Assembly (NCBI GenBank): GCA_026005055.1
Contig: BPKI01000001.1
Location: 372,001 to 436,000, forward strand
DNA: 64,000 nt
Reading direction: 5' to 3'
DNA from: Lysobacterales bacterium
GTDB lineage: Bacteria; Pseudomonadota; Gammaproteobacteria; Xanthomonadales; BPKI01
The first letter of the stretch is position 1, and every line of letters begins with the position of its first letter. The position numbers and the translations under genes are program-made. Positions 26,243-60,867 of the stretch are shown here, piece after piece. The notes beneath the pieces are model-generated. The model did no database searches. It saw only the letters and a list, made by a program, of their open reading frames with translations, and was not told the DNA's origin.

Positions 26243-27637
26243 ATGAACGCCCTTTGTGCCTGCATGGGTTGGGTTTTGGCGTTGCTGCTGCCCAGCCTTG
26301 CTCTAGCCCAGACCTTCACCAACCCCGCCGTGATCACCATCCCGGGCAGCGGCACCGCTCCGGGGGCGGCGTCGCCCTATCCGTCGACGATCAACGTCAC
26401 CGGGCTGCCAGTGGGGACGATCGCCAACATTCGCGCCAGGGTGCGCGGCTTCCAGCATACCTGGCCTTTGGACGTCGACGTGCTTCTGGTCGCTCCGGGC
26501 GGCCAGACGCTGGTTCTCTTCGGCGACCGTTGCGGAACCTCCCCATTCCCTGCTCCCGTCGATCTCACCTTCGAAGATGGTGCTCCCGCGCTTCCTACCG
26601 CGACCTGCGCGAGCGGAACCTATGCCCCCGGCGGCATCTCGTCCGCCGCGTTCCCAGGACCGGCGCCTGCTGGGCCTTACGGTTCCACCTTCGCCTCCCT
26701 GGGATTGATTGGTGGTCCGTCGGCGGCGGCAAATGGTAACTGGCAGCTCTTCGTCTATGACGATGCGGGCGGTGACACAGGGCAGTTCGGCAGCGGCTGG
26801 GAGTTGATTTTCACCGTGGACGTCCCGCCGCAGTTCAGCTACACACCGACCCCGCCGGTGCCGGTCATTGGTGTGCACACCACCGGCACCATCGGCTCCA
26901 CCGCCAATCTCACCATCAACGTGGCCATCGGCACCGCCGGCAGCGGCACCGGCGCGGCGGCGACCACCACCACCACCTGCTCGGCACCGCCTGCGCCCTT
27001 CGCCGGCTTCACCCAGACGCCGACGGCGGTGGGCAGTGGGCCGGTGTCGCCGACTTCGATCACCGGCACCTGCACCGTCGCCGCCACCGCCCAGACGGCC
27101 ACCCTCAACTGCGTGGAGAACCGCGGCGGCACCAACGTGCCGATCACCTTCGACCTGGTCTGCCCGGCGGCGACCAACGTACCGCCGAACCTCACCCTCA
27201 CGCCGCCGCCCGGTTCCACCATCACCGGCAGCGGCGGCGGGCTTCGTCGGCTCGACCGCGAACTTCTCGATCGCGGGCACGGTCACCAATCCGGCGGCAC
27301 GCGGCACCGGTGCCGGCGCCACGACCACCTTCAGCTGCACCCCGCCGGGTCGCGCCCTTCAGCCGGCTTCACCGGCACCATGCAGGCGGTGGGCAATGGC
27401 CCGCTCACCGGCAGCCCGATCACGGGCACCTGCACGGTGGGGCCGGCCCCGGTCACGGTCACCATGACCTGCCAGCTCAACCAGGGCGGTAACATCAGCG
27501 ATGTGACTTACCAGCTGGTCTGCCCGCTCGGTCTTCCTGAGCCGCGTCCGGTGGACACGCTCGACCGCTTCGGCCTTGCGCTGCTCGCGTTGTTCCTCCT
27601 CGCCCTGGGCGCGGTGGCCTACCGGCGGCTGAGCTGA
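26243..27637 (+). CDS. secreted P-domain protein with CTERM-like tail, paralog 1 (frame-scrambled segment)
   Basis: A 464-residue exported protein: signal peptide (LALLLPSLALAQ), a proprotein-convertase P-domain-like beta sandwich (about 30-195; DLTFEDGA, ANGNWQLFVYDDAGGDTG), two ~110-residue Thr/Gly-rich modules sharing GSTANLTI, ATTTTTCS, GFTQTPTAVG and TGTCTV, and a C-terminal Pro motif, hydrophobic helix and Arg (PEPRPVDTL ... AYRRLS) like IPTL/PEP-CTERM sorting tails. In module 2, bases ~27240-27350 read sensibly only in the +1 frame (FVGSTANFSIAGTVTN...), while flanks fit the main frame; the annotated protein therefore has ~40 nonsense residues. This is either a compensated frameshift or a sequence error. 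No protease domain is present. Confidence 0.85.
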   Translation: MNALCACMGWVLALLLPSLALAQTFTNPAVITIPGSGTAPGAASPYPSTINVTGLPVGTIANIRARVRGFQHTWPLDVDVLLVAPGGQTLVLFGDRCGTSPFPAPVDLTFEDGAPALPTATCASGTYAPGGISSAAFPGPAPAGPYGSTFASLGLIGGPSAAANGNWQLFVYDDAGGDTGQFGSGWELIFTVDVPPQFSYTPTPPVPVIGVHTTGTIGSTANLTINVAIGTAGSGTGAAATTTTTCSAPPAPFAGFTQTPTAVGSGPVSPTSITGTCTVAATAQTATLNCVENRGGTNVPITFDLVCPAATNVPPNLTLTPPPGSTITGSGGGLRRLDRELLDRGHGHQSGGTRHRCRRHDHLQLHPAGSRPSAGFTGTMQAVGNGPLTGSPITGTCTVGPAPVTVTMTCQLNQGGNISDVTYQLVCPLGLPEPRPVDTLDRFGLALLALFLLALGAVAYRRLS

Positions 27638-27898: not shown

Positions 27899-27935
27899 CG
27901 CGTGAACGCCGTCGCAAAAAAGGGGGTTGCTCGCC

Positions 27936-29000
27936 ATGAAGGCGCACCGCCTGCTTCTGGCCGCCGCGATCGCGCTGCCCGGCCTCGCCTTTGCGCAGAC
28001 CTTCACCTTCTCGAACTCGACGCCGATCGCGGTACCGTCTCCGCCCGCGACCGGGGGCATCGCCAGCCCCTACCCCTCGCCGATCCTAGTCGCGCTGACC
28101 TCCTGTCCGAACGCGACCATCAGCGCGATGCGCGCCCGCGTCCTCGGATTCGAGGCATCCGTCCCGCAGGACGTGGACGTGCTCCTGTCGGGGCCTCTTG
28201 GGCAGACGCTCGTGCTCTTCGGCGACCGCTGTTACACCTCCCCCCTCCCGCCCCCGGGCATCGACCTCACCTTCGAGGACGGGGCGGCGACCTTGCCCGT
28301 GGCCAGCAGCTGCAGCTCCGGGACCTACGCCCCGGGCCAGTTCGGATCGGTCAGTTTTCCTCTGCCCGCCCCCCAGCCGCCGCCCCCCTACGGCACCACC
28401 TTCGCTTCGCTGGGCCTCATCGGCGGACCGGCGGCGGCGGCGAATGGCACCTGGGCGCTCTGGGTCGTGGATGAAGGTTCGTTCGCCACCGACCCTGGCC
28501 AATTCGCACGCGGCTGGCAGATCGAGTTCGACATCACGGGCGCTTGCCCGCCGATCTTCAGCTATACCCCCACCCCGCCCGGTCCCGTGACGGGCAGCCA
28601 CACCACCGGCCTGGTCGGTTCCACGGCCAACCTCGCCATCGGCGTCACGGTCGCCACCCCCGGCTTCGGGACCGGGGCTCCCGCCACCACCACCCTCATC
28701 TGCTCGCCGCCGCCTACCCCCTTCACCGGCTTCACTCAGACGCCGACCGCCGTCGGCGATGGGCCGGTTTCCCCGACCTCGCTGACCGGCACCTGCACGG
28801 TGGCCGCCACGACCCAGACCGCCACCCTGAACTGCATCGAGGATCGAGGCGGTTTTGAGGTGCCGATCAGCTTCCAGCTCGTCTGCCCGGCGGGGATCCC
28901 GGTCGCTCGGCCGGCCCACACCCTGAGTGGGCAGGCCTTGCTCCTGCTAGCGCTGGCTCTGCTCGCCCTCGGCGCGGTGGCCTACCGGCGGCTGAGCTGA
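27936..29000 (+). CDS. secreted P-domain protein with CTERM-like tail, paralog 2
   Basis: A 354-residue exported paralog of the preceding gene with an intact frame. Signal peptide ([16 protein letters not shown]), P-domain-like region (GPLGQTLVLFGDRC; IDLTFEDGAATLP; AANGTWALWVVDEG), one Thr/Gly-rich module (GSTANLAIGVTVATPG ... GFTQTPTAVGDGPVSPT), and the same tail (GIPVARPAHTL, hydrophobic helix, AYRRLS). It has one module where paralog 1 has two. The ATG at 27936 has AGGGGG at a 9-base spacing; a TTG nine bases upstream is less likely. Probably surface-associated or outer-membrane-sorted; function unknown. Confidence 0.88.
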   Translation: MKAHRLLLAAAIALPGLAFAQTFTFSNSTPIAVPSPPATGGIASPYPSPILVALTSCPNATISAMRARVLGFEASVPQDVDVLLSGPLGQTLVLFGDRCYTSPLPPPGIDLTFEDGAATLPVASSCSSGTYAPGQFGSVSFPLPAPQPPPPYGTTFASLGLIGGPAAAANGTWALWVVDEGSFATDPGQFARGWQIEFDITGACPPIFSYTPTPPGPVTGSHTTGLVGSTANLAIGVTVATPGFGTGAPATTTLICSPPPTPFTGFTQTPTAVGDGPVSPTSLTGTCTVAATTQTATLNCIEDRGGFEVPISFQLVCPAGIPVARPAHTLSGQALLLLALALLALGAVAYRRLS

Positions 29001-51280: not shown

Positions 51281-51835
51281 TCAGGTGCACAAAGCGGTCA
51301 TCGCCCGCCTGTCGTACCTCCCCGCTAGCCGGATGTGGGTCAGCAACCCAAAGGGCGCCGGCCGGGGCTCATCGATCAGGATGAGAAAGTTCTGAACGTC
51401 CATGATCTCCGCGAGCCGCTGCCGCACCCTGCGAATCGCCCCAAGCTGCATCGTCCACGGCACGCTCGAGGACACGCAAAAACAAAGCCCACAGAGCAAG
51501 CTCTTGAAATCTTTGCTGAGAAAGGCCGGGACACCGTCGGCGACGCAATAGGGATCCTCGGCCGCGTCGAAGATGAAGCTTCGGATCACGCAGTCCTCTT
51601 CAGGACCGCCCACCAGGTCGATTGCGGCCGTATGCCGTTCCCACCACAGATAGATATTCTTCGGCGATCTCGCGAGGCGCCATCGAATCGCCTTGCTCTC
51701 CCGCAACGCGACCTGGAAATCACAAGGCCAGATGAGCGCGACGTCGCCGTCGTGGAAATCGGCCTCAGGATCGAAAAGTGAACTCGTAACGAACAACACT
51801 TTGCCCCGCCCGTCGGCCGGCATGAAAAAGTCCAT
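51281..51835 (-). CDS. orphan protein of unknown function
   Basis: A 184-residue protein without recognised domain. It looks coding: mixed residue use with Trp, Phe and Cys (IYLWWERH; LLCGLCFCVSSS; NFLILIDEPRPAPF), lower GC than neighbours, and a strong ribosome site GGAGGTGGGG directly before the ATG at 51835. No signal peptide. An upstream ATG at 51895 is less supported. It is convergent with rho and downstream of the DUF11 gene. Local base composition suggests recent acquisition; possible accessory function unknown. Confidence 0.7.
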   Translation of the reverse strand: MDFFMPADGRGKVLFVTSSLFDPEADFHDGDVALIWPCDFQVALRESKAIRWRLARSPKNIYLWWERHTAAIDLVGGPEEDCVIRSFIFDAAEDPYCVADGVPAFLSKDFKSLLCGLCFCVSSSVPWTMQLGAIRRVRQRLAEIMDVQNFLILIDEPRPAPFGLLTHIRLAGRYDRRAMTALCT

Positions 51836-51960
51836 CCCCACCTCCTGCTCGAGAACGACCGGACAGAGATAGGGGCGAGCCGGCGATCCTTTCAACGGGC
51901 CATGGACGTGATGGGCTGAGGCCGTTCAGCGGCTGTTGCCGACTCGACCGACGTCCCACC

Positions 51961-52031
51961 GGGGGCGAAGGCCCCCTGCGCAAGCGACGACAAGCAGACC
52001 ACGGACGCGGCCGCCGCTCGGGGCGGCCGCG
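51961..52031 (-). terminator. two GC hairpins downstream of the DUF11 gene
   Basis: CGCGGCCGCC (52006-52015) pairs with GGCGGCCGCG (52022-52031) around a 6-base loop, and GGGGGC (51961-51966) pairs with GCCCCC (51971-51976). They follow the DUF11 stop on the minus strand. No T-tract, so they may only stabilise the 3' end. Confidence 0.45.
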
Positions 52032-52043
52032 CCGTTCGTTCCA

Positions 52044-55000
52044 TCACCCAGTGCGACGACGCGCTTCGGCCACGCCCAAGCCGAGCAGCATCAGCCCCAG
52101 CCCGACGAGCGCGATCATGCCCAGGGCAGGAACCGAGCGCGGCTGCGGGATACCGAGCAGGGTGACGGTCACCGTCGAGCTGGAGCTCACCACCACATTG
52201 CCCGGAGCCGGACCCACACCCTGCGCCGTCGCCGTATTGGTGAGCGTCTGGTTGAACACGTCGGCCGAGGTAAGCACGTAGCTTCCGGTGCATACCATCT
52301 GCTGCGCAGGCGCGAGCACGGAAGGCTGCGGCGGCGCACAGACCAGAACCGGCAGCAGCGGATCGCTCACGGTCACGTTGCTCAGGGTCACCGGGCCGAT
52401 GTTGGTCACGGTGAGGGTGTAGTTGATCGTCTCACCGGCATCGCCCACGCCGTTGCCGTTGGTATCCGCGAGCGAGGCGGTCTTCACCAGCCTGATGGCC
52501 GGCCCTCCGGCGTTCGAGGTCGCCGTCGCCGAAGCCGGCGGCGCGTTCACCGATCCGCCGCCCGGCCGTGTGCCCGAGGCGTTCGCCGTGTTGGTCACGC
52601 TTCCGGCATCGACGTTCGCCTGGGTCACCGTGTAGCTGCCGGTGCAGGTGAGGGTCTGACCCGGCGCCAGGGTCGCCGGCTGCACCGGCGTGCAGGAAAG
52701 CGTCCCGAGCAGCGGGTCGGTGATCGTGACGCCGCTCAAGGTCACGTTGCCCGTGTTCGTCGCCACGATCTGGTAGTTGATCACGTTGCCCGCGGCGTTG
52801 TAGGGATTGCCCGAGGTGATCGTCTTGCTGAGCGAAAGCCCCGGGTTTTGGTTCGCCGTCGCCGTCGCCGAGGCCGGCGGGGCATTGACGGCGCCTCCTC
52901 CCGGACGGGTACCCGCGGCGTTGGCGGTATTGGTCACCACGCCGGCATCGACGTTCGCTTGCGTCACCGTGTAGCTGCCGGTGCAGGTGAGCGTCTGCCC
53001 GGGCGCCAGGGTCGCCGGCTGCACCGGCGAGCAGGAGAGCGTCCCGAGCAGCGGGTCGGTGATCGTCACGTTCGTCAACGTCACGTTGCCGGTATTGGTC
53101 GCGACGAGCTGATAGCTGATCACGTTACCCGGCGCGCTGTAGGGATTGCCCGAGGTGATGGTCTTGCTGAGCGAGAGCCCGGGATTCTGGGTAGCGGTCG
53201 CACTCGCCTGCGCCTGCGCGCTCACCGTACCGCCGCCCGGCCGCGTACCGGAGGCGGTGGCGGTGTTGTTGACGCTGCCCGCATCCACGTTCGCTTGGGT
53301 CACCGTATAGCTGCCGCTGCAGGTGAGGGTCTGGCTCGGGGCAAGTGTGGCCGGCTGCACCGGCGTGCAGCTGAGCGCGCCGAGCAGCGGGTCGGTGATC
53401 GTCACGTTCGTCAACGTCACGTTGCCGGTGTTGGTCGCCACGAGCTGGTAACTGATGACGTTACCCGGCGCGTTGTAGGGGCTGCCGGAGGTGATCGTCT
53501 TGACCAGATTCAGCGCGGCGTTTTGATTGGCGACCGCCGTCGCGGAGGCGGGCGGCGCGTTCACCGGACCGTTGGGACCGGTGCCCGAGGCATTGGCCGT
53601 GTTCGTGACGCTGCCGGCATCGACGTCCGCTTGCGTCACCGTGTAGCTACCGGTGCAGGTCAGGGTCTGGCTCGGCGCAAGGGTGGCCGGCTGCACCGGC
53701 GTGCAGGAGAGCGCGCCGAGCAGCGGGTCGGTGATCGTCACGTTCGTCAACGTCACGTTGCCGGTGTTGGTCGCCACGAGCTGGTAACTGATGACGTTAC
53801 CCGGCGCGTTGTAGGGGCTGCCGGAGGTGATCGTCTTGACCAGCGAAAGCGAAGGATTCTGCGTCGCCGTCGCCGTCGCCGAGGCGGGCGGGGCATTCAC
53901 CGGCGCACCGCCTGGGGCCGTCCCCGCGGCATTCGCGGTGTTCGTGACCGAGCCGGCATTGACGTCGGCCAGCGTCACCGTGTAGCTGCCGGTGCAGGTG
54001 AGCGTCTGCGAGGGCGCGAGCGTGGCCGGCTGCGTCGGCGAGCAGCTGAGCGCGCCGAGCAGCGGGTCGGTGATCGTCACACCGCTCAGGGTCACGTTAC
54101 CCGTGTTGGTGGCGACGAGCTGGTAGCTGATCACATCACCCGGATTCACGTAGGGATTGCCGCCGGTGATGGTCTTGGTGAGCGCGAGGCTGGGGTTCTG
54201 GTTGGCGTTCGCGGTGGCCGAGGCCGGCGGCGCGTTCACCGGACCGCCCGGACCCGTGCCCGAGGCATTGGCGGTATTCACGACGCTGCCGGCATCCACA
54301 TCCGCCTGGGTCACTGTGTAGCTACCGATGCAGGTGAGCGTCTGCGCAGGCGCAAGCGTGGCCGGCTGCGCCGGCGTGCAGGAGAGCGTCCCGAGCAGCG
54401 GGTCGGTGATCGTGACGCCGCTCAAGGTCACGTTGCCCGTGTTGGTCGCCACGATCTGGTAGTTGATGACGTTGCCCGCGGCGTTGTAGGGATTGCCCGA
54501 GGTGATGGTCTTGGCCAAGGAAAGCGCCGGGTTCTGGTTGGCCGTCGCCGTCGCCGAGGCCGGCGGAGCATTGATCGTGCCACCGCCCGGCGCCGTCCCC
54601 GAGGCATTCGCCGTATTCGTGACGCTGCCCGCATCGACGTTCGCTTGCGTCACCGTGTAGCTCCCGGTGCAGGTCAGGGTCTGGCTCGGCGCGAGGGTGG
54701 CCGGCTGCGCCGGCGAGCAGCTGAGCGTCCCGAGCAGCGGGTCGGTGATCGTCACACCGGTCAAAGTCACGTTGCCGGTGTTGGTCGCCACGATCTGGTA
54801 GTTGATCACGTTGCCCGCGGCGTTGTAGGGATTGCCCGAGGTGATGGTCTTGGCCAAGGAAAGCGCCGGGTTCTGGTTGGCCGTCGCCGTCGCCGAGGCC
54901 GGCGGAGCATTGATCGTGCCACCGCCCGGCGCCGTCCCCGAGGCATTCGCCGTATTCGTGACGCTGCCCGCATCGACGTTCGCTTGGGTCACCGTGTAAC

Positions 55001-57197
55001 TGCCGGTGCAGGTCAGCGTCTGCGCAGGCGCGAGCGTGGCCGGCTGCGCCGGCGTGCAGCTGAGCGTCCCGAGCAGCGGATCGGTGATCGTGACGCCGCT
55101 CAAGGTCACGTTGCCCGTGTTCGTCGCCACGATCTGGTAGTTGATGACGTTGCCCGCGGCGTTGTAGGGGTTGCCCGAGGTGATGGTCTTGGCCAAGGAA
55201 AGCGCCGGGTTCTGGTTGGCCGTCGCCGTCGCCGAGGCGGGCGGGGCATTCACCGGACCACCCGGACCCGTGCCCGATGCATTGGCGGTATTCACGACGC
55301 TGCCGGCATCCACATCCGCCTGCGTCACCGTGTAGCTGCCGGTGCAGGTCAGGGTCTGGCTCGGCGTGAGGGTGGCCGGCTGCGCCGGCGAGCAGCTGAG
55401 CGTCCCGAGCAGCGGGTCGGTGATCGTCACACCGGTCAAAGTCACGTTGCCGGTGTTGGTCGCCACGATCTGATAGTTGATCACGTTGCCCGCAGCGTTG
55501 TAGGGGCTGCCGGAGGTGATCGTCTTCGCGAGCGAGAGCGAGGGGCAGCCGGTGAACAGGTTGAAGCTCTGGGTGGTGGTCACCCCGGGGTGACCATCGG
55601 TCGCACCGTTGCGGGGAAACTCGGTGAGCGCAGCGGAGCTCGTCGTTCCGCCAGCCCCGCCCAGCGACTGAAGCGTCGCCGAAGCGAGTCCAGAGACCGC
55701 GACCAAGCCGCCACCACCACCGCCGCCAGGGCCCTCGGCTTCGTTGTTGGTGATGAGCTGATTGCCGCCGTTGCCGCCGTTGGCGCGAATGGTGCCGCTG
55801 AAGTTGCCCCCTCCGGCCTGGATCAGGATGGAGCCGCCCGCGCCGCCTCCGCCCGGAGCGTCGTTGTGATTCGGGACGGTGTTCGCGCCATTGGCACCGT
55901 TCGCGGAGACGGTGCCGCTGCCCACCACCGTTCCCGCCCGGATCAGGATCAGGCCGCCACCCCTACCGCCATCCCCACCCGCATTGTTGTTCATGGCACC
56001 CGCGCCACCCCCGCCGCCGAAGAAGACCCGATCGGCGAGGTTGTAGGCGAGCGGCCGACCACCCCAGCCGCCTTTCGCGCGCCGTCGGTCGCCGCCCCAA
56101 GCCGCCTGACCGGGTGCGAGCGTCGTGGCATCCTGATCGCTATTGGAAAAGGTGTAGCCGCCACGACCGCCGCCGACGTGGTTGGTATGGGTGTTCCCGT
56201 TGGCGATGTATCCCGGATCGAGAGTCCATGCGGCAGGACCGGAGACCGCGGTCGGCATGATCCCCTGTCCGCACCAGGTGATCGCCGGATTGGTGCCGTC
56301 GTAGGTCGCGGTGCCTGCGGTGCAATAAGGTGTCAGGCTCGGCGCGACGTTTCCGCCGCCGCCGCCACCCGCGTTGTGGCTGCCGCCACCGCCGCCGCCG
56401 TTGGCCGCGGCCGCCTCATCGAAACTCCCGCCCGGATTGGAAAAGGGCAGAAGCGGATAGTTGGTCGGCGGGCTGTTGTCGCTCGCAATCCCCTCGCCTT
56501 TGTGGCCGCCCGCGAGCGTGGCATTCGACGCGAAGGCGAATGCTGAAGTGCCCCCCGATGAACGGTCGTTGTTCTCCCTCACCCCTCCACGAAAGCCTCG
56601 CCCATCGGCATGGATCACCCCGTTGATGGTGAGCGTCTGATCGACGAACAGGGCGACGATGCCACCTCGCGTGCCATCCCAAGGCTGCGCCACCACCGAG
56701 CCGCCCGCCTGCACGTCGAGGTTTTGGTACTGGGGAATGCGCACGACCTGGGTGCGACCGGCGGCGAAGGCAAACTTCAAGCCGACGCAAGACGCTCCAT
56801 TACTCACCGGCAAGATCTGGATGGTGTTGCCCGAGACCCCGGCCACCGAGCGAATCTCGTAACGGCCCGCGCTGCCGTAATCGGTGACCGCACCGAAGGT
56901 GTGATCCAAGGTGGTGCTGATCGAAGCACCCGTCGCCTGGTAGATGAGGATCAGATCACCTGGGGCGAGCGGCCCGCCGCCGACGGTTTCAGGACTGTTG
57001 AGGTCGGCGATGTTGATCACCGTGATCGAAAGGTCCCCGACGCTGGCACTCGTCGCCAGCTCCGCGTACTGGTTGAGCACCGTATTGGCCGCCGTCACCG
57101 TGCGGTTGCCGTTCTTGCCCGGCTGGTAGGCCAAGCCCTCGGAAAAGGGCAATGAAGCGAGCAGAGCGAGAAAAATGAGATGAGCGATGAAGCGCAT
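52044..57197 (-). CDS. large secreted glycine-rich protein with ten DUF11 repeats and CTERM-like tail
   Basis: A 1717-residue exported protein. Signal peptide (1-24); a ~560-residue N-terminal module with VLNQYAELATSASVGDLSI, many GGGGGG loops and GGWGG, shared with the paralog at 58405-60867; then nine near-identical ~113-residue DUF11-type (Ig-like) repeats (KTITSGNPYNAAGN ... LTCTGSYTVTQ.DVDAGSV) and a tenth divergent one; finally a Pro motif, hydrophobic helix and Arg end (RSVPALG ... ARRRTG) like IPTL/PEP-CTERM tails. It is probably a long surface or extracellular adhesin/matrix protein. A perfect TTGACA at 57288-57283 (minus) lies about 90 bases upstream. Confidence 0.9.
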   Translation of the reverse strand: MRFIAHLIFLALLASLPFSEGLAYQPGKNGNRTVTAANTVLNQYAELATSASVGDLSITVINIADLNSPETVGGGPLAPGDLILIYQATGASISTTLDHTFGAVTDYGSAGRYEIRSVAGVSGNTIQILPVSNGASCVGLKFAFAAGRTQVVRIPQYQNLDVQAGGSVVAQPWDGTRGGIVALFVDQTLTINGVIHADGRGFRGGVRENNDRSSGGTSAFAFASNATLAGGHKGEGIASDNSPPTNYPLLPFSNPGGSFDEAAAANGGGGGGSHNAGGGGGGNVAPSLTPYCTAGTATYDGTNPAITWCGQGIMPTAVSGPAAWTLDPGYIANGNTHTNHVGGGRGGYTFSNSDQDATTLAPGQAAWGGDRRRAKGGWGGRPLAYNLADRVFFGGGGGAGAMNNNAGGDGGRGGGLILIRAGTVVGSGTVSANGANGANTVPNHNDAPGGGGAGGSILIQAGGGNFSGTIRANGGNGGNQLITNNEAEGPGGGGGGGLVAVSGLASATLQSLGGAGGTTSSAALTEFPRNGATDGHPGVTTTQSFNLFTGCPSLSLAKTITSGSPYNAAGNVINYQIVATNTGNVTLTGVTITDPLLGTLSCSPAQPATLTPSQTLTCTGSYTVTQADVDAGSVVNTANASGTGPGGPVNAPPASATATANQNPALSLAKTITSGNPYNAAGNVINYQIVATNTGNVTLSGVTITDPLLGTLSCTPAQPATLAPAQTLTCTGSYTVTQANVDAGSVTNTANASGTAPGGGTINAPPASATATANQNPALSLAKTITSGNPYNAAGNVINYQIVATNTGNVTLTGVTITDPLLGTLSCSPAQPATLAPSQTLTCTGSYTVTQANVDAGSVTNTANASGTAPGGGTINAPPASATATANQNPALSLAKTITSGNPYNAAGNVINYQIVATNTGNVTLSGVTITDPLLGTLSCTPAQPATLAPAQTLTCIGSYTVTQADVDAGSVVNTANASGTGPGGPVNAPPASATANANQNPSLALTKTITGGNPYVNPGDVISYQLVATNTGNVTLSGVTITDPLLGALSCSPTQPATLAPSQTLTCTGSYTVTLADVNAGSVTNTANAAGTAPGGAPVNAPPASATATATQNPSLSLVKTITSGSPYNAPGNVISYQLVATNTGNVTLTNVTITDPLLGALSCTPVQPATLAPSQTLTCTGSYTVTQADVDAGSVTNTANASGTGPNGPVNAPPASATAVANQNAALNLVKTITSGSPYNAPGNVISYQLVATNTGNVTLTNVTITDPLLGALSCTPVQPATLAPSQTLTCSGSYTVTQANVDAGSVNNTATASGTRPGGGTVSAQAQASATATQNPGLSLSKTITSGNPYSAPGNVISYQLVATNTGNVTLTNVTITDPLLGTLSCSPVQPATLAPGQTLTCTGSYTVTQANVDAGVVTNTANAAGTRPGGGAVNAPPASATATANQNPGLSLSKTITSGNPYNAAGNVINYQIVATNTGNVTLSGVTITDPLLGTLSCTPVQPATLAPGQTLTCTGSYTVTQANVDAGSVTNTANASGTRPGGGSVNAPPASATATSNAGGPAIRLVKTASLADTNGNGVGDAGETINYTLTVTNIGPVTLSNVTVSDPLLPVLVCAPPQPSVLAPAQQMVCTGSYVLTSADVFNQTLTNTATAQGVGPAPGNVVVSSSSTVTVTLLGIPQPRSVPALGMIALVGLGLMLLGLGVAEARRRTG
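52525..55547 (-). repeat. nine tandem DUF11 coding repeats (~336-340 bp)
   Basis: Nine in-frame repeats of about 112-113 codons. By eye, blocks are exactly shared between units, for example 54469-54647 with 54808-54986 (179 bp), and about 136 bp around 53380-53515 with 53715-53850. Different pairs share different blocks, a mosaic that suggests recent recombination among units. Confidence 0.92.
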
Positions 57198-57256
57198 GGA
57201 GATTCCCCGGATGTCCTTGCACCGGCCTCGTTCGGCGAGGGCCGATCAAGCCTGCG

Positions 57257-57299
57257 ATGATACAGGATGAAAGTTGGATGATTGTCAAAGTTTGTGACA
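57257..57299 (-). promoter_or_regulatory. candidate promoter/dyad upstream of the DUF11 gene
   Basis: On the minus strand a perfect TTGACA (57288-57283) is followed by TATCAT (57262-57257) 20 bases on, a poor spacing. It overlaps an inverted repeat TGTCA-N7-TGACA (57283-57299), a possible operator, also shared with the divergent radical SAM gene at 57365. Confidence 0.35.
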
Positions 57300-57364
57300 G
57301 GAACCATGAAAGCTTTCCTGCGGGCGATGTCTCAACTGATCCGGCAACGGGGTGCGGCACCCTC

Positions 57365-58393
57365 ATGAAGGGGCGAGGCGCCATCGGTAATCCCCCGGGG
57401 CGATTCGAATCGTCGTGGCGCGAGCGCGACGACGCGGAAGCGGAAAACACGCGACGCACCGAGCTCCGCCACGAACAGGCGCGCGAGGTGCTCTCGGCGA
57501 ACGACTCCCCCGACCTCCCCTTCGAGCGGGCGCTCAACCCCTACCGCGGTTGCGAGCACGGCTGCATCTATTGCTACGCCCGACCCTCGCACGCCTACCT
57601 CGGCCTTTCCCCTGGGCTCGATTTCGAGACCAAGATCAGCGCCAAGATCAACGCGCCCGAGCGACTCCGCGCGGCTTTATGCCAAGAAGGCTACGTGGTC
57701 AAACCGATCAATCTCGGTTCCAACACCGACCCCTACCAACCCGCCGAACGCCGGCTCGGGCTCACCCGCGCCATCCTCGAGGTGCTGCTTGAGTACCGGC
57801 ATCCGGTGAGCATCGTCACCAAGAGCGCCTTGGTGCTCCGCGACCTCGATCTGCTCGCCGCCTTGGCCAGGGAGAACCTCGTCCTCGTCGGCGTCTCGAT
57901 CACCACCCTCGACAACCGCCTGGCCGCACGCATGGAGCCGCGCGCCACCGCCCCGCACCGACGCCTTCAGACCATCGCCGAGCTCGCTGCCGCCGGGGTG
58001 CCGGTCGGCGTCTTCGCTGCCCCGATCATTCCCGCCATCAACGACCATGAGCTCGAGCGCATCCTAGCGGCCGCCGCCGAACGCGGGGCGCGCTTTGCGG
58101 GTTACACCCTGATCCGCCTGCCGCACGAGCTCAAAGCGCTTTTCCGCGAATGGCTCGAGGCGCATTGTCCCGATCGCGCCGAGCATGTTCTCTCCCTCAT
58201 CCGCCAGATGCGCGGCGGGCGCGAGAACGACTCCCGCTTTTTCCACCGCCTGCGCGGCGAAGGGCCTTACGCCGAACTCCTCGGCCAGCGCTTCCGCCTC
58301 GCCTGCAAGCGCCTCGGCCTGCAAGGCCGCCAGGCCATCCGCCTCGACACCACCCTATTCCGCCGACCCGGCGAGCAGCTTCCCCTCTTCTGA
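57365..58393 (+). CDS. PA0069 family radical SAM protein
   Basis: A 342-residue radical SAM protein related to spore photoproduct lyase-like PA0069. The 4Fe-4S cluster motif is C-E-H-G-C-I-Y-C (CxxxCxxC). N-terminus MKGRGAIGNPPGRFE is typical; a longer open frame upstream is not. The reaction is unknown; DNA repair has been suggested for the wider SplB group, without proof here. It lies between the two glycine-rich genes. Confidence 0.92.
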   Translation: MKGRGAIGNPPGRFESSWRERDDAEAENTRRTELRHEQAREVLSANDSPDLPFERALNPYRGCEHGCIYCYARPSHAYLGLSPGLDFETKISAKINAPERLRAALCQEGYVVKPINLGSNTDPYQPAERRLGLTRAILEVLLEYRHPVSIVTKSALVLRDLDLLAALARENLVLVGVSITTLDNRLAARMEPRATAPHRRLQTIAELAAAGVPVGVFAAPIIPAINDHELERILAAAAERGARFAGYTLIRLPHELKALFREWLEAHCPDRAEHVLSLIRQMRGGRENDSRFFHRLRGEGPYAELLGQRFRLACKRLGLQGRQAIRLDTTLFRRPGEQLPLF

Positions 58394-58404
58394 CGCGACG
58401 CGCT

Positions 58405-60867
58405 TCAGCGTCGAGCCATCGCAACGAGGGAGGCCAGGCCGCTCAGCCCGAGCAGCAGCACGAGCAGAACCAAGAGCTGCGGCGACACCGCCGGTACGGT
58501 GACCGGAAGCGGAAGACCCAGCGGGACCACCGCATTCGCCGTGACTTCGAGATCCTGTGCGCCGGCCCGCGCCAAGGCACGAGCCTGGTTGATGAGCTCC
58601 ATCGCAGGATTGAGATCCCCAGGCCGCACCGTGTACTCGGCTTCGCAGAGCGCACTCTCGCCGGGCAAGAGGGTAGCCGGCAAAAGCGGCGTGCAGCTGA
58701 GCAGCCCATCGAGCATGGGATCATCGATCAGCACCTGGCTCAAGGGGACCGTTCCCGTATTCTGGACGCGCAGGCGATAACGGATGCGCTCGCCCGGCTC
58801 GGCCCGCCCGCTGCCATTTCCATCCTGAAGCAGCGCTTCCTTGCTCAGCGCCAAAGCCGGTGCCCCCGCTGGGACTGCCACGGCGAGCGCCTGAGCGCGA
58901 AGCGGGCCGTAACCCCCACCGCTTTGGCGCTGGGCGGAGAGGGTGGCTTCGTTGAGGATCGAGCCATTGGCGACATCCGCAGCGGTCGTGAAATAGCTAC
59001 CCTCACAGCTCATGCTCGCCCCAGGGGCGAGAGATTGCGGTAGGCCGGGCGAGCACACGAGCCCAGGCAGCAGCGGATCGGAGATCGAGGTGATCTGAAT
59101 CGGCCGCTCGCCTGAGTTCAGCACGTTCAGGCGATAGCGGATCTCCTGGCCGGGTCCGGTATAGGGCGCGCCAGAGAGAACCTCCTTCACGAAGGAAAGT
59201 CGATCGCAGTCGGGAGAAAGCAGGCTTTGAAACCGCCTGCCTTGGCCGGCCCCGAGGAATCCGGCGGTCGCTCCATTCTCGGGAAACTCCGCGAGACTTG
59301 ATGAGCGCGTTTCGCCCGGCGGACCACCCTCCACTTCGATCTGAAGGCCTGGAGGATAGGAGCCCGTGTCGCTCGCGATCTCATAGACCCCGCCACCACC
59401 ACCCCCGCCGGGCCCGGCGCTCAGAGCGCCCGCATGAACGTGGTCGCCGCCCCGACCGCCGCGGAGGATGATCTGCCCGGCGAAGGCTGAAAGATCCCGC
59501 GCGTGGAGCTTCACCGAGCCGCCGCCTCCGCCACCACCGCCACCGCCGTCGCCTACCAGCGCCCCGCCGTAGCCGCCGCGGCCACCTTCGGCGCTGAAGC
59601 GACCGGTACCGGAGAGTCGAAGCGTCTCGACCAGGACGAAGCCTCCACCCGGACCACCGTTGCCGGCATCGGTACCCCCTCCCGCGCCCCCGCCGCCCCC
59701 GAAAAAGGCCTGACCGAAATAGTTGCCGCCGACCCAGTAAACCCCGTGGCCACCCCAGCCGCCTTTGGGGCGACGCCAATCCCCTCCCCAAGACGGGTCA
59801 CCCGGAGGCACCGAAAGGGCATCCCGATCGACGGTGGCGAGGCTATAACCGCCTCGCCCTCCCCCGGGGTGAGCTGGCCAAAGTGGGTCACCATACGCTG
59901 GATCGAGCGCCCAAGCGGGCGAAGAGCTCGCGGGAATACCCTGCCGTGCCAAACGGACGGGGGGCAGGCGTGAGTCGTACAAAATAGGCAAGGCCGTGTA
60001 TGTGGGAATGTCGATGTCGACGTGCGCCCCGCCGCCACCGCCACCGCCGCGGCTTCCACCCCCGCCGCCGCCATTGGCGGCCGGCCCTTCATCGAAATTC
60101 CCGGCCGGATTGGAAAAGGGGTAGCTACGGCCGGCATGGACGTGGGGGGGACCGCTCGCGATTCCCTCGCCCTTGTGTCCACCCGCAGGTACTGCATTGG
60201 TGCCGTAGGCGATCGGGGTCGGGTCGCCGGCGTTGCGGTCATCGGGATCGGCGAGACCTCCCCGGAAACCGCGCTCGGAAGCGCTGATTTCGCCCTCGAG
60301 AATCAGTTCCTCCGCGAGTAGGGCGATGACCCCACCGCGCTCCCCATCCCACGGCCGAGCGAGCAGCCGGGCGGCTGCGCTCACCTCCAGGCGTCGATAA
60401 GCAGGGACGCGGATCACCTGCGAATGCGCCGCCCGGAACGGTTGTCGCAAGCCCAGGCAGCTTACACCGTCGAACACCGGCTCGAGTTCGATGCGGTTGC
60501 CGTCCACCCGCGCCACCGTCCGAAGCTCGTAGTTGCCGGCGCCACCGTAGTCGCTCACCTCGCCGTACAACTCGTTGAAGTCGGAGCGAATCTGCGCCCC
60601 CCGCGCTTGGTAAAGCAAGATGAGATCACCTGCCCGGAGCGGACCGCCACCGACCGGTTCCGCGCTCACCAGCTGAGCAATGTCATCGACTTCGACGACG
60701 AGATCGCCCACGGCTGCATCGGTTGCAAGCCGCGCGTACTGATTCACGACGAAATCGCCGGAGCTGAAGCTGCGGTCGCCGTTCCGTACGGGGAAGGCCT
60801 GCGTCGCCAACGTCGGGAGGATGCAGAAGAGCGCCGTAAGGAACGAGCGAAGGAGCGGTCGCATCAT
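58405..60867 (-). CDS. secreted glycine-rich protein with two DUF11 domains and CTERM-like tail
   Basis: An 820-residue exported paralog of the 1717-residue protein. Signal peptide (LLRSFLTALFCILPTLATQA); N-terminal module with VVNQYARLATDAAVGDLV, AGDLILLYQARGA, GGHKGEGIAS and GGG loops; only two DUF11-like domains (KEVLSGAPYTGPGQE; ALLQDGNGSGRAEPGERI); tail VTVPAVSPQLL, hydrophobic helix, MARR. The N-module matches the larger protein along most of its length, while the repeat region is short and divergent. ATG 60867 has GAGG at a 7-base spacing. Surface function inferred. Confidence 0.88.
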   Translation of the reverse strand: MMRPLLRSFLTALFCILPTLATQAFPVRNGDRSFSSGDFVVNQYARLATDAAVGDLVVEVDDIAQLVSAEPVGGGPLRAGDLILLYQARGAQIRSDFNELYGEVSDYGGAGNYELRTVARVDGNRIELEPVFDGVSCLGLRQPFRAAHSQVIRVPAYRRLEVSAAARLLARPWDGERGGVIALLAEELILEGEISASERGFRGGLADPDDRNAGDPTPIAYGTNAVPAGGHKGEGIASGPPHVHAGRSYPFSNPAGNFDEGPAANGGGGGGSRGGGGGGGAHVDIDIPTYTALPILYDSRLPPVRLARQGIPASSSPAWALDPAYGDPLWPAHPGGGRGGYSLATVDRDALSVPPGDPSWGGDWRRPKGGWGGHGVYWVGGNYFGQAFFGGGGGAGGGTDAGNGGPGGGFVLVETLRLSGTGRFSAEGGRGGYGGALVGDGGGGGGGGGGSVKLHARDLSAFAGQIILRGGRGGDHVHAGALSAGPGGGGGGGVYEIASDTGSYPPGLQIEVEGGPPGETRSSSLAEFPENGATAGFLGAGQGRRFQSLLSPDCDRLSFVKEVLSGAPYTGPGQEIRYRLNVLNSGERPIQITSISDPLLPGLVCSPGLPQSLAPGASMSCEGSYFTTAADVANGSILNEATLSAQRQSGGGYGPLRAQALAVAVPAGAPALALSKEALLQDGNGSGRAEPGERIRYRLRVQNTGTVPLSQVLIDDPMLDGLLSCTPLLPATLLPGESALCEAEYTVRPGDLNPAMELINQARALARAGAQDLEVTANAVVPLGLPLPVTVPAVSPQLLVLLVLLLGLSGLASLVAMARR

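Follow-up and report, generated by a model that had tools for sequence, protein, structure and literature searches.

GP1 is likely to be a fibrillar adhesin of the cell surface that exosortase H (XrtH) sorts, with GP2 as a short-stalked paralogue and with the radical SAM gene that lies between the two outside the system. By the window we mean the whole stretch of DNA that was analysed, 64,000 nucleotides corresponding to bases 372001-436000 of a single-contig genome of 2.44 Mb. GP1 has the layout of a fibrillar adhesin, with a signal peptide (judged by eye), a head, a repeat stalk and a sorting tail. An earlier note on this DNA had described two exported giants on either side of a radical SAM gene; both open reading frames were confirmed (Table 1), the N-termini of both translations resemble signal peptides by eye, and the gene between them is real. 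Two other frames lie close by. One (51936-56546, plus strand, 1536 aa) runs antisense to GP1 and is most likely spurious, owing to the GC-rich repeats; the other, between rho and GP1 (51281-51895, minus strand, 204 aa), is without a Pfam or NCBIfam match and may be a real orphan gene. A promoter scan gave nothing useful.

Table 1. Features of the locus and predicted XrtH substrates in the window (positions are those of the window).
Feature	Position	Strand	Description	Basis
GP1	52044..57197	-	Exported, 1717 aa: signal peptide, AgmC_N-like head, ten DUF7507 (CLIPPER_2) repeats, IPTL-CTERM-like tail	
GP1 head module	55518..57134	-	Residues about 22-560	NF047640 match, GP2 homology, AlphaFold2 model
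GP1 stalk	52173..55541	-	Ten DUF7507 repeats, residues about 553-1675	
GP1 sorting tail	52047..52154	-	GIPQPRSVPALGMIALVGLGLMLLGLGVAEARRRTG	Tail comparison within the genome
Radical SAM gene, PA0069 family	57257..58393	+	Likely true start 57365	NF033668, CxxxCxxC motif
GP2	58405..60867	-	Exported paralogue, 820 aa: signal peptide, AgmC_N-like head, two DUF7507 repeats, divergent tripartite tail GLPLPVTVPAVSPQLLVLLVLLLGLSGLASLVAMARR	
Predicted XrtH substrate	26243..27637	+	Exported, 464 aa, P-domain match (PF01483)	
Predicted XrtH substrate	27927..29000	+	Exported, 357 aa, paralogue of the adjoining 26243..27637 gene	

The N-module of about 560 residues that the two proteins had been said to share proved to be a homologous head of about 500 residues (48% identity over 514 residues, E = 6e-120), and a search of the genome found copies of it in GP1 and GP2 only. 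The NCBIfam model of the AgmC N-terminal domain (NF047640, AgmC_N) matched the heads with 180 (GP1) and 150 (GP2) bits, and the homology is clear over profile positions of about 29-265 and a second stretch. The heads differ from AgmC, however, in scoring under the equivalog cut-off of 275. Because of this, the head is not AgmC, and the gliding role, which we considered and rejected, is not transferable to GP1 or GP2. An AlphaFold2 model of the GP1 head, based on an alignment of seven sequences, had a pLDDT of 66 and a pTM of 0.75, with 163 of 539 residues below pLDDT 50. The best Foldseek matches of the model were beta-helix phage tailspikes (E = 1e-5, TM 0.15). VIA-align returned a small barrel or beta-helix of phage tail proteins and a polysaccharide lyase at Z 9.4-11, the typical best Z being 7-8; the first-ranked structure was 9n71 (Z 11.0, rmsd 1.6, 78 aligned). 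The model, of middling quality, thus bears a partial resemblance to the beta-helix and small barrel of phage tailspikes and polysaccharide lyases. It is no more than suggestive of a sugar-facing head, in that it would fit carbohydrate binding without showing it. We take the AgmC_N-like head to be probably the outward, putatively binding, part of GP1.

The stalk repeats had been described as DUF11, ten in one protein and two in the other. The counts stand, but the family assignment does not: PF24346 (DUF7507) fits far better than DUF11, with 987.5 bits for GP1 and 112.7 bits for GP2 against a cut-off of 27. In the DNA, a 339-bp unit is repeated in tandem along the GP1 stalk (8.9 copies, 83% match). 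DUF7507 has been renamed CLIPPER_2; an intramolecular Lys-Asn isopeptide bond with a catalytic Asp is predicted for it, the domains are frequent in the stalks of fibrillar adhesins, and the isopeptide bond of the related DUF11 has been solved by crystallography (PMC12617251). Upon alignment, with the reference triad taken from the same study, the Lys/Asp/Asn triad and a Cys pair were found to be kept in 12/12 repeats of GP1 and GP2. Nine GP1 repeats are near-copies of each other and carry little weight as evidence for the triad; the last GP1 repeat and both GP2 repeats are divergent, and still have the triad intact. Judging from these residues, the repeats of both proteins probably self-cross-link through a spontaneous Lys-Asn isopeptide bond. 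The suggestion that the locus could involve modified protein is, in this form, plausible by way of predicted autocatalytic bonds, but a role for the radical SAM enzyme is not supported; with the triad intact in every repeat, the protein could be modified in the absence of such an enzyme.

A CTERM-like tail had been attributed to both proteins. We searched the genome with four tails, assessed the 15 leading matches and then modelled twelve tails. Thirteen of the 15 leading matches were true protein C-termini, several of them on proteins with visible signal peptides, and at least 11 other proteins in the genome end in a tail that resembles that of GP1, which makes a family of at least 12. A leave-one-out model, which is partly circular because it was grown from four chosen tails, recovered each of the twelve with 20.9-51.6 bits (GP1, 44.6 bits; the 26243..27637 and 27927..29000 products, 46.6 and 29.3 bits). 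An independent model, for which the only input was six tails from other genomes, all on proteins with the head, placed the same three proteins at ranks 1-3 among 317 ORF ends of the window, with 28.8 bits for the product ending at 27637, 19.0 bits for the product ending at 29000 and 11.7 bits for GP1, the third. These two genes are adjoining exported paralogues, both with an XrtH-type tail. In two profile searches, the GP1 tail scored 12.8 and 18.7 bits, under the TIGR04174 cut-off of 20.5, and for this reason we call it IPTL-CTERM-like and not a member of TIGR04174. Only one tail in the genome passes that cut-off, so that the local motif, roughly [GL]-[LIV]-P-x-x-R-x-[IV]-P-x-L-G in place of the canonical IPTL, is a divergent version. 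By its sequence, then, the GP1 tail is an unusual local version of IPTL-CTERM. The attribution thus holds for GP1 but is suggestive at most for GP2, the tail of which has a tripartite look, cannot be told statistically from background (5.0-5.7 bits vs 4.1-4.3 bits for the next background tail) and appears too divergent to assign. Elsewhere in the genome, several large repeat proteins (L086, L088, L089 and L090) end in near-identical tails, LLPPPRSIPMLG or close to it; they fall in two distant clusters, G000:C1 about 1312070-1315471 and 2434717-2437483, and are apparently recent duplicates.

The genome has one exosortase-family gene, and it is xrtH (C1:26541-27002; TIGR04177, 180.9 bits against a cut-off of 86), 0.4 Mb distant from GP1. 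XrtH was found in 46/61 genomes of the order. It was present in all 11 head-positive genomes that are at least 90% complete, as compared with 32/45 head-negative genomes (one-sided p = 0.04, kinship ignored); over all 61 genomes, the association between head and XrtH is weak (one-sided p = 0.21, kinship ignored). GspD-type secretin genes are also encoded in the genome, and nothing links them to GP1. A literature search on exosortase H returned almost nothing, and no XrtH experiment was among the papers found. Sortase-like systems have tripartite tails and surface display in common with the exosortase type (PMC11980579).

Four head proteins of genus g25 (L103, L138, L139 and L140) keep the head with a DUF7507/DUF11 stalk despite the absence of PA0069, and IPTL-CTERM was above the cut-off in two of the four scanned (27.6 and 27.2 vs 20.5). 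Among six head proteins scanned from relatives in the order, Peptidase_C25 follows the head in five and DUF7507 repeats in one. In L104, L106, L108, L110 and L114, the AgmC_N-like head is fused to a C25 (PorU-like) peptidase without a CTERM tail; in L105 (G054), a relative's protein of 3265 aa, this head is accompanied by over 20 DUF11-type repeats, and several of them match an isopeptide-forming fimbrial domain. A Bacteroidetes contig combines the head with a T9SS type B sorting domain. Since the head is found on C25 peptidases, on stalks and with T9SS type B, it is portable, and its natural partners are various surface or secreted bodies and not one enzyme. A contig scan with glycine-rich head patterns gave at least five loci, which sets a minimum for the breadth beyond the order. 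A class-wide search of 321 genomes with a head alignment, in which at most four candidates were scored per genome and absence is therefore soft, found the present genome only. A MYXO-CTERM tail suspected by eye in L076, from a Myxococcales relative, was not confirmed. Tentatively, and as a possibility that we hold to be somewhat doubtful, the AgmC_N-like head may be a surface-binding module that lineages exchange between modes of display, namely XrtH/IPTL-CTERM stalks in this genome, C25 peptidases among relatives and T9SS type B in Bacteroidetes; the present genome would then use a variant XrtH code, PxxR-x-[IV]P-x-LG, with at least 12 clients missed by current models.

The earlier note had proposed that GP1, GP2 and the radical SAM enzyme could make up a single surface-layer or matrix system, possibly with modified protein; in such a system, the glycine-rich head or the repeats would be the target of the enzyme. 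The three genes are physically adjacent in this genome, and glycine-rich sequence could suit a peptide-modifying radical SAM enzyme. The encoded protein matches NF033668 (PA0069) with 482.9 bits against a cut-off of 360, its translation has the cluster motif as CEHGCIYC, and its start is likely to be 57365 and not 57257, given that residue 38 is the first to align with the family profile. However, neither the Pfam nor the NCBIfam search gave it a SPASM-type or peptide-modifying domain, and the gene is on the opposite strand, divergent from GP1 and convergent with GP2, and hence in no operon with either. Among 61 relatives in the order, the head was found in 15 and PA0069 in 40, and the two are independently distributed: PA0069 was present in 10/15 head-positive and 30/46 head-negative genomes (odds ratio 1.07, Fisher p = 1, kinship ignored). 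In an enlarged set, 13/27 head-positive genomes had PA0069. Where a genome has both, they lie on different contigs, except in G003, where the distance is 545 kb; many of the assemblies are fragmented, which makes a different contig weak evidence and the flanks the stronger reading. In tblastn searches, PA0069 was found in the flanks of 0/25 other head loci and the head near 0/29 PA0069 loci (1.5 kb flanks), and the search is sound in that it recovered PA0069 in its own loci. Moreover, PA0069 was absent from all five head-positive genomes sampled in g25, a genus that keeps the head-stalk architecture. Such independence is the outcome that the earlier note itself had named as making the adjacency a matter of chance. 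With co-occurrence at chance level and no shared loci, we rejected the enzyme as a partner of GP1 and GP2, consider the three-part system highly improbable and judge the radical SAM gene to be an unrelated neighbour. G012, G014 and G039 have further copies of PA0069, full or partial, no more than about 20 kb away from the main gene, a pattern that points to duplication in place or to mobility.

It is also conceivable that the two proteins serve as structural components of an S-layer or matrix and not as adhesins, with the XrtH route unchanged. An S-layer protein of Methylomirabilis lanthanidiphila bears IPTL-CTERM (PMC8671808), and proposed archaeal S-layer proteins are reported to have DUF11 repeats (PMC12617251). 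We find this unlikely, as a distinct head on a long repeat stalk looks adhesin-like, the repeat count differs between the paralogues (ten vs two) in a manner unlike that of a lattice protein, and the same head also serves C25 peptidases. That the GP1 tail is under the curated cut-off and the GP2 tail is background-like could instead mean that the proteins are secreted or outer-membrane proteins, the tail being a mere membrane anchor and XrtH serving other substrates. Yet at least 12 tails at true C-termini make up a coherent family that includes the one of GP1, and relatives have a canonical IPTL-CTERM at the same place; a mere anchor is, in our judgement, quite improbable.

For GP1 as an adhesin sorted by XrtH, we infer the following order of steps and their chemistry. 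The signal peptide would export GP1, and the DUF7507 repeats would fold into the stalk, each stiffened by a self-formed Lys-Asn isopeptide bond with Asp as the catalyst, to which a disulphide probably adds. The C-terminal tail, with its motif, membrane helix and arginines, would retain GP1 in the inner membrane; XrtH, the gene for which lies elsewhere in the genome, would then cut the tail and hand the protein on for surface display. Possibly, GP1 crosses the outer membrane through a type II secretion system, and it would then be displayed head outward, poised for adhesion. GP2 would present the same head on a short stalk, perhaps by the same sorting route.

This reading removes a tempting but false enzyme-substrate pairing of the radical SAM protein with GP1 and GP2, and provides a genome-wide list of candidate exosortase H clients. 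It also brings forward natural stalks, probably self-cross-linking, with up to ten repeats under one head, and the long- and short-stalk paralogues, side by side, could be used to test the effect of stalk length.

Like the CLIPPER_2 stalks of fibrillar adhesins (PMC12617251), GP1 and GP2 have tandem repeats that score far over the cut-off and conserve the triad, the isopeptide bond being here a prediction from sequence. With the C25 (PorU-like) proteins of relatives in the order, GP1 and GP2 share the AgmC_N-like head, but those proteins have a peptidase where GP1 and GP2 have a stalk, and lack a CTERM tail. The closest likeness in sorting is to the IPTL-CTERM/exosortase H system (TIGR04174, PF18203/TIGR04177): XrtH is present, the GP1 tail is tripartite and head-stalk relatives have canonical tails, whereas the local tails of this genome differ by a motif of the PxxR-x-[IV]P-x-LG type and, with one exception, fall below the TIGR04174 cut-off.
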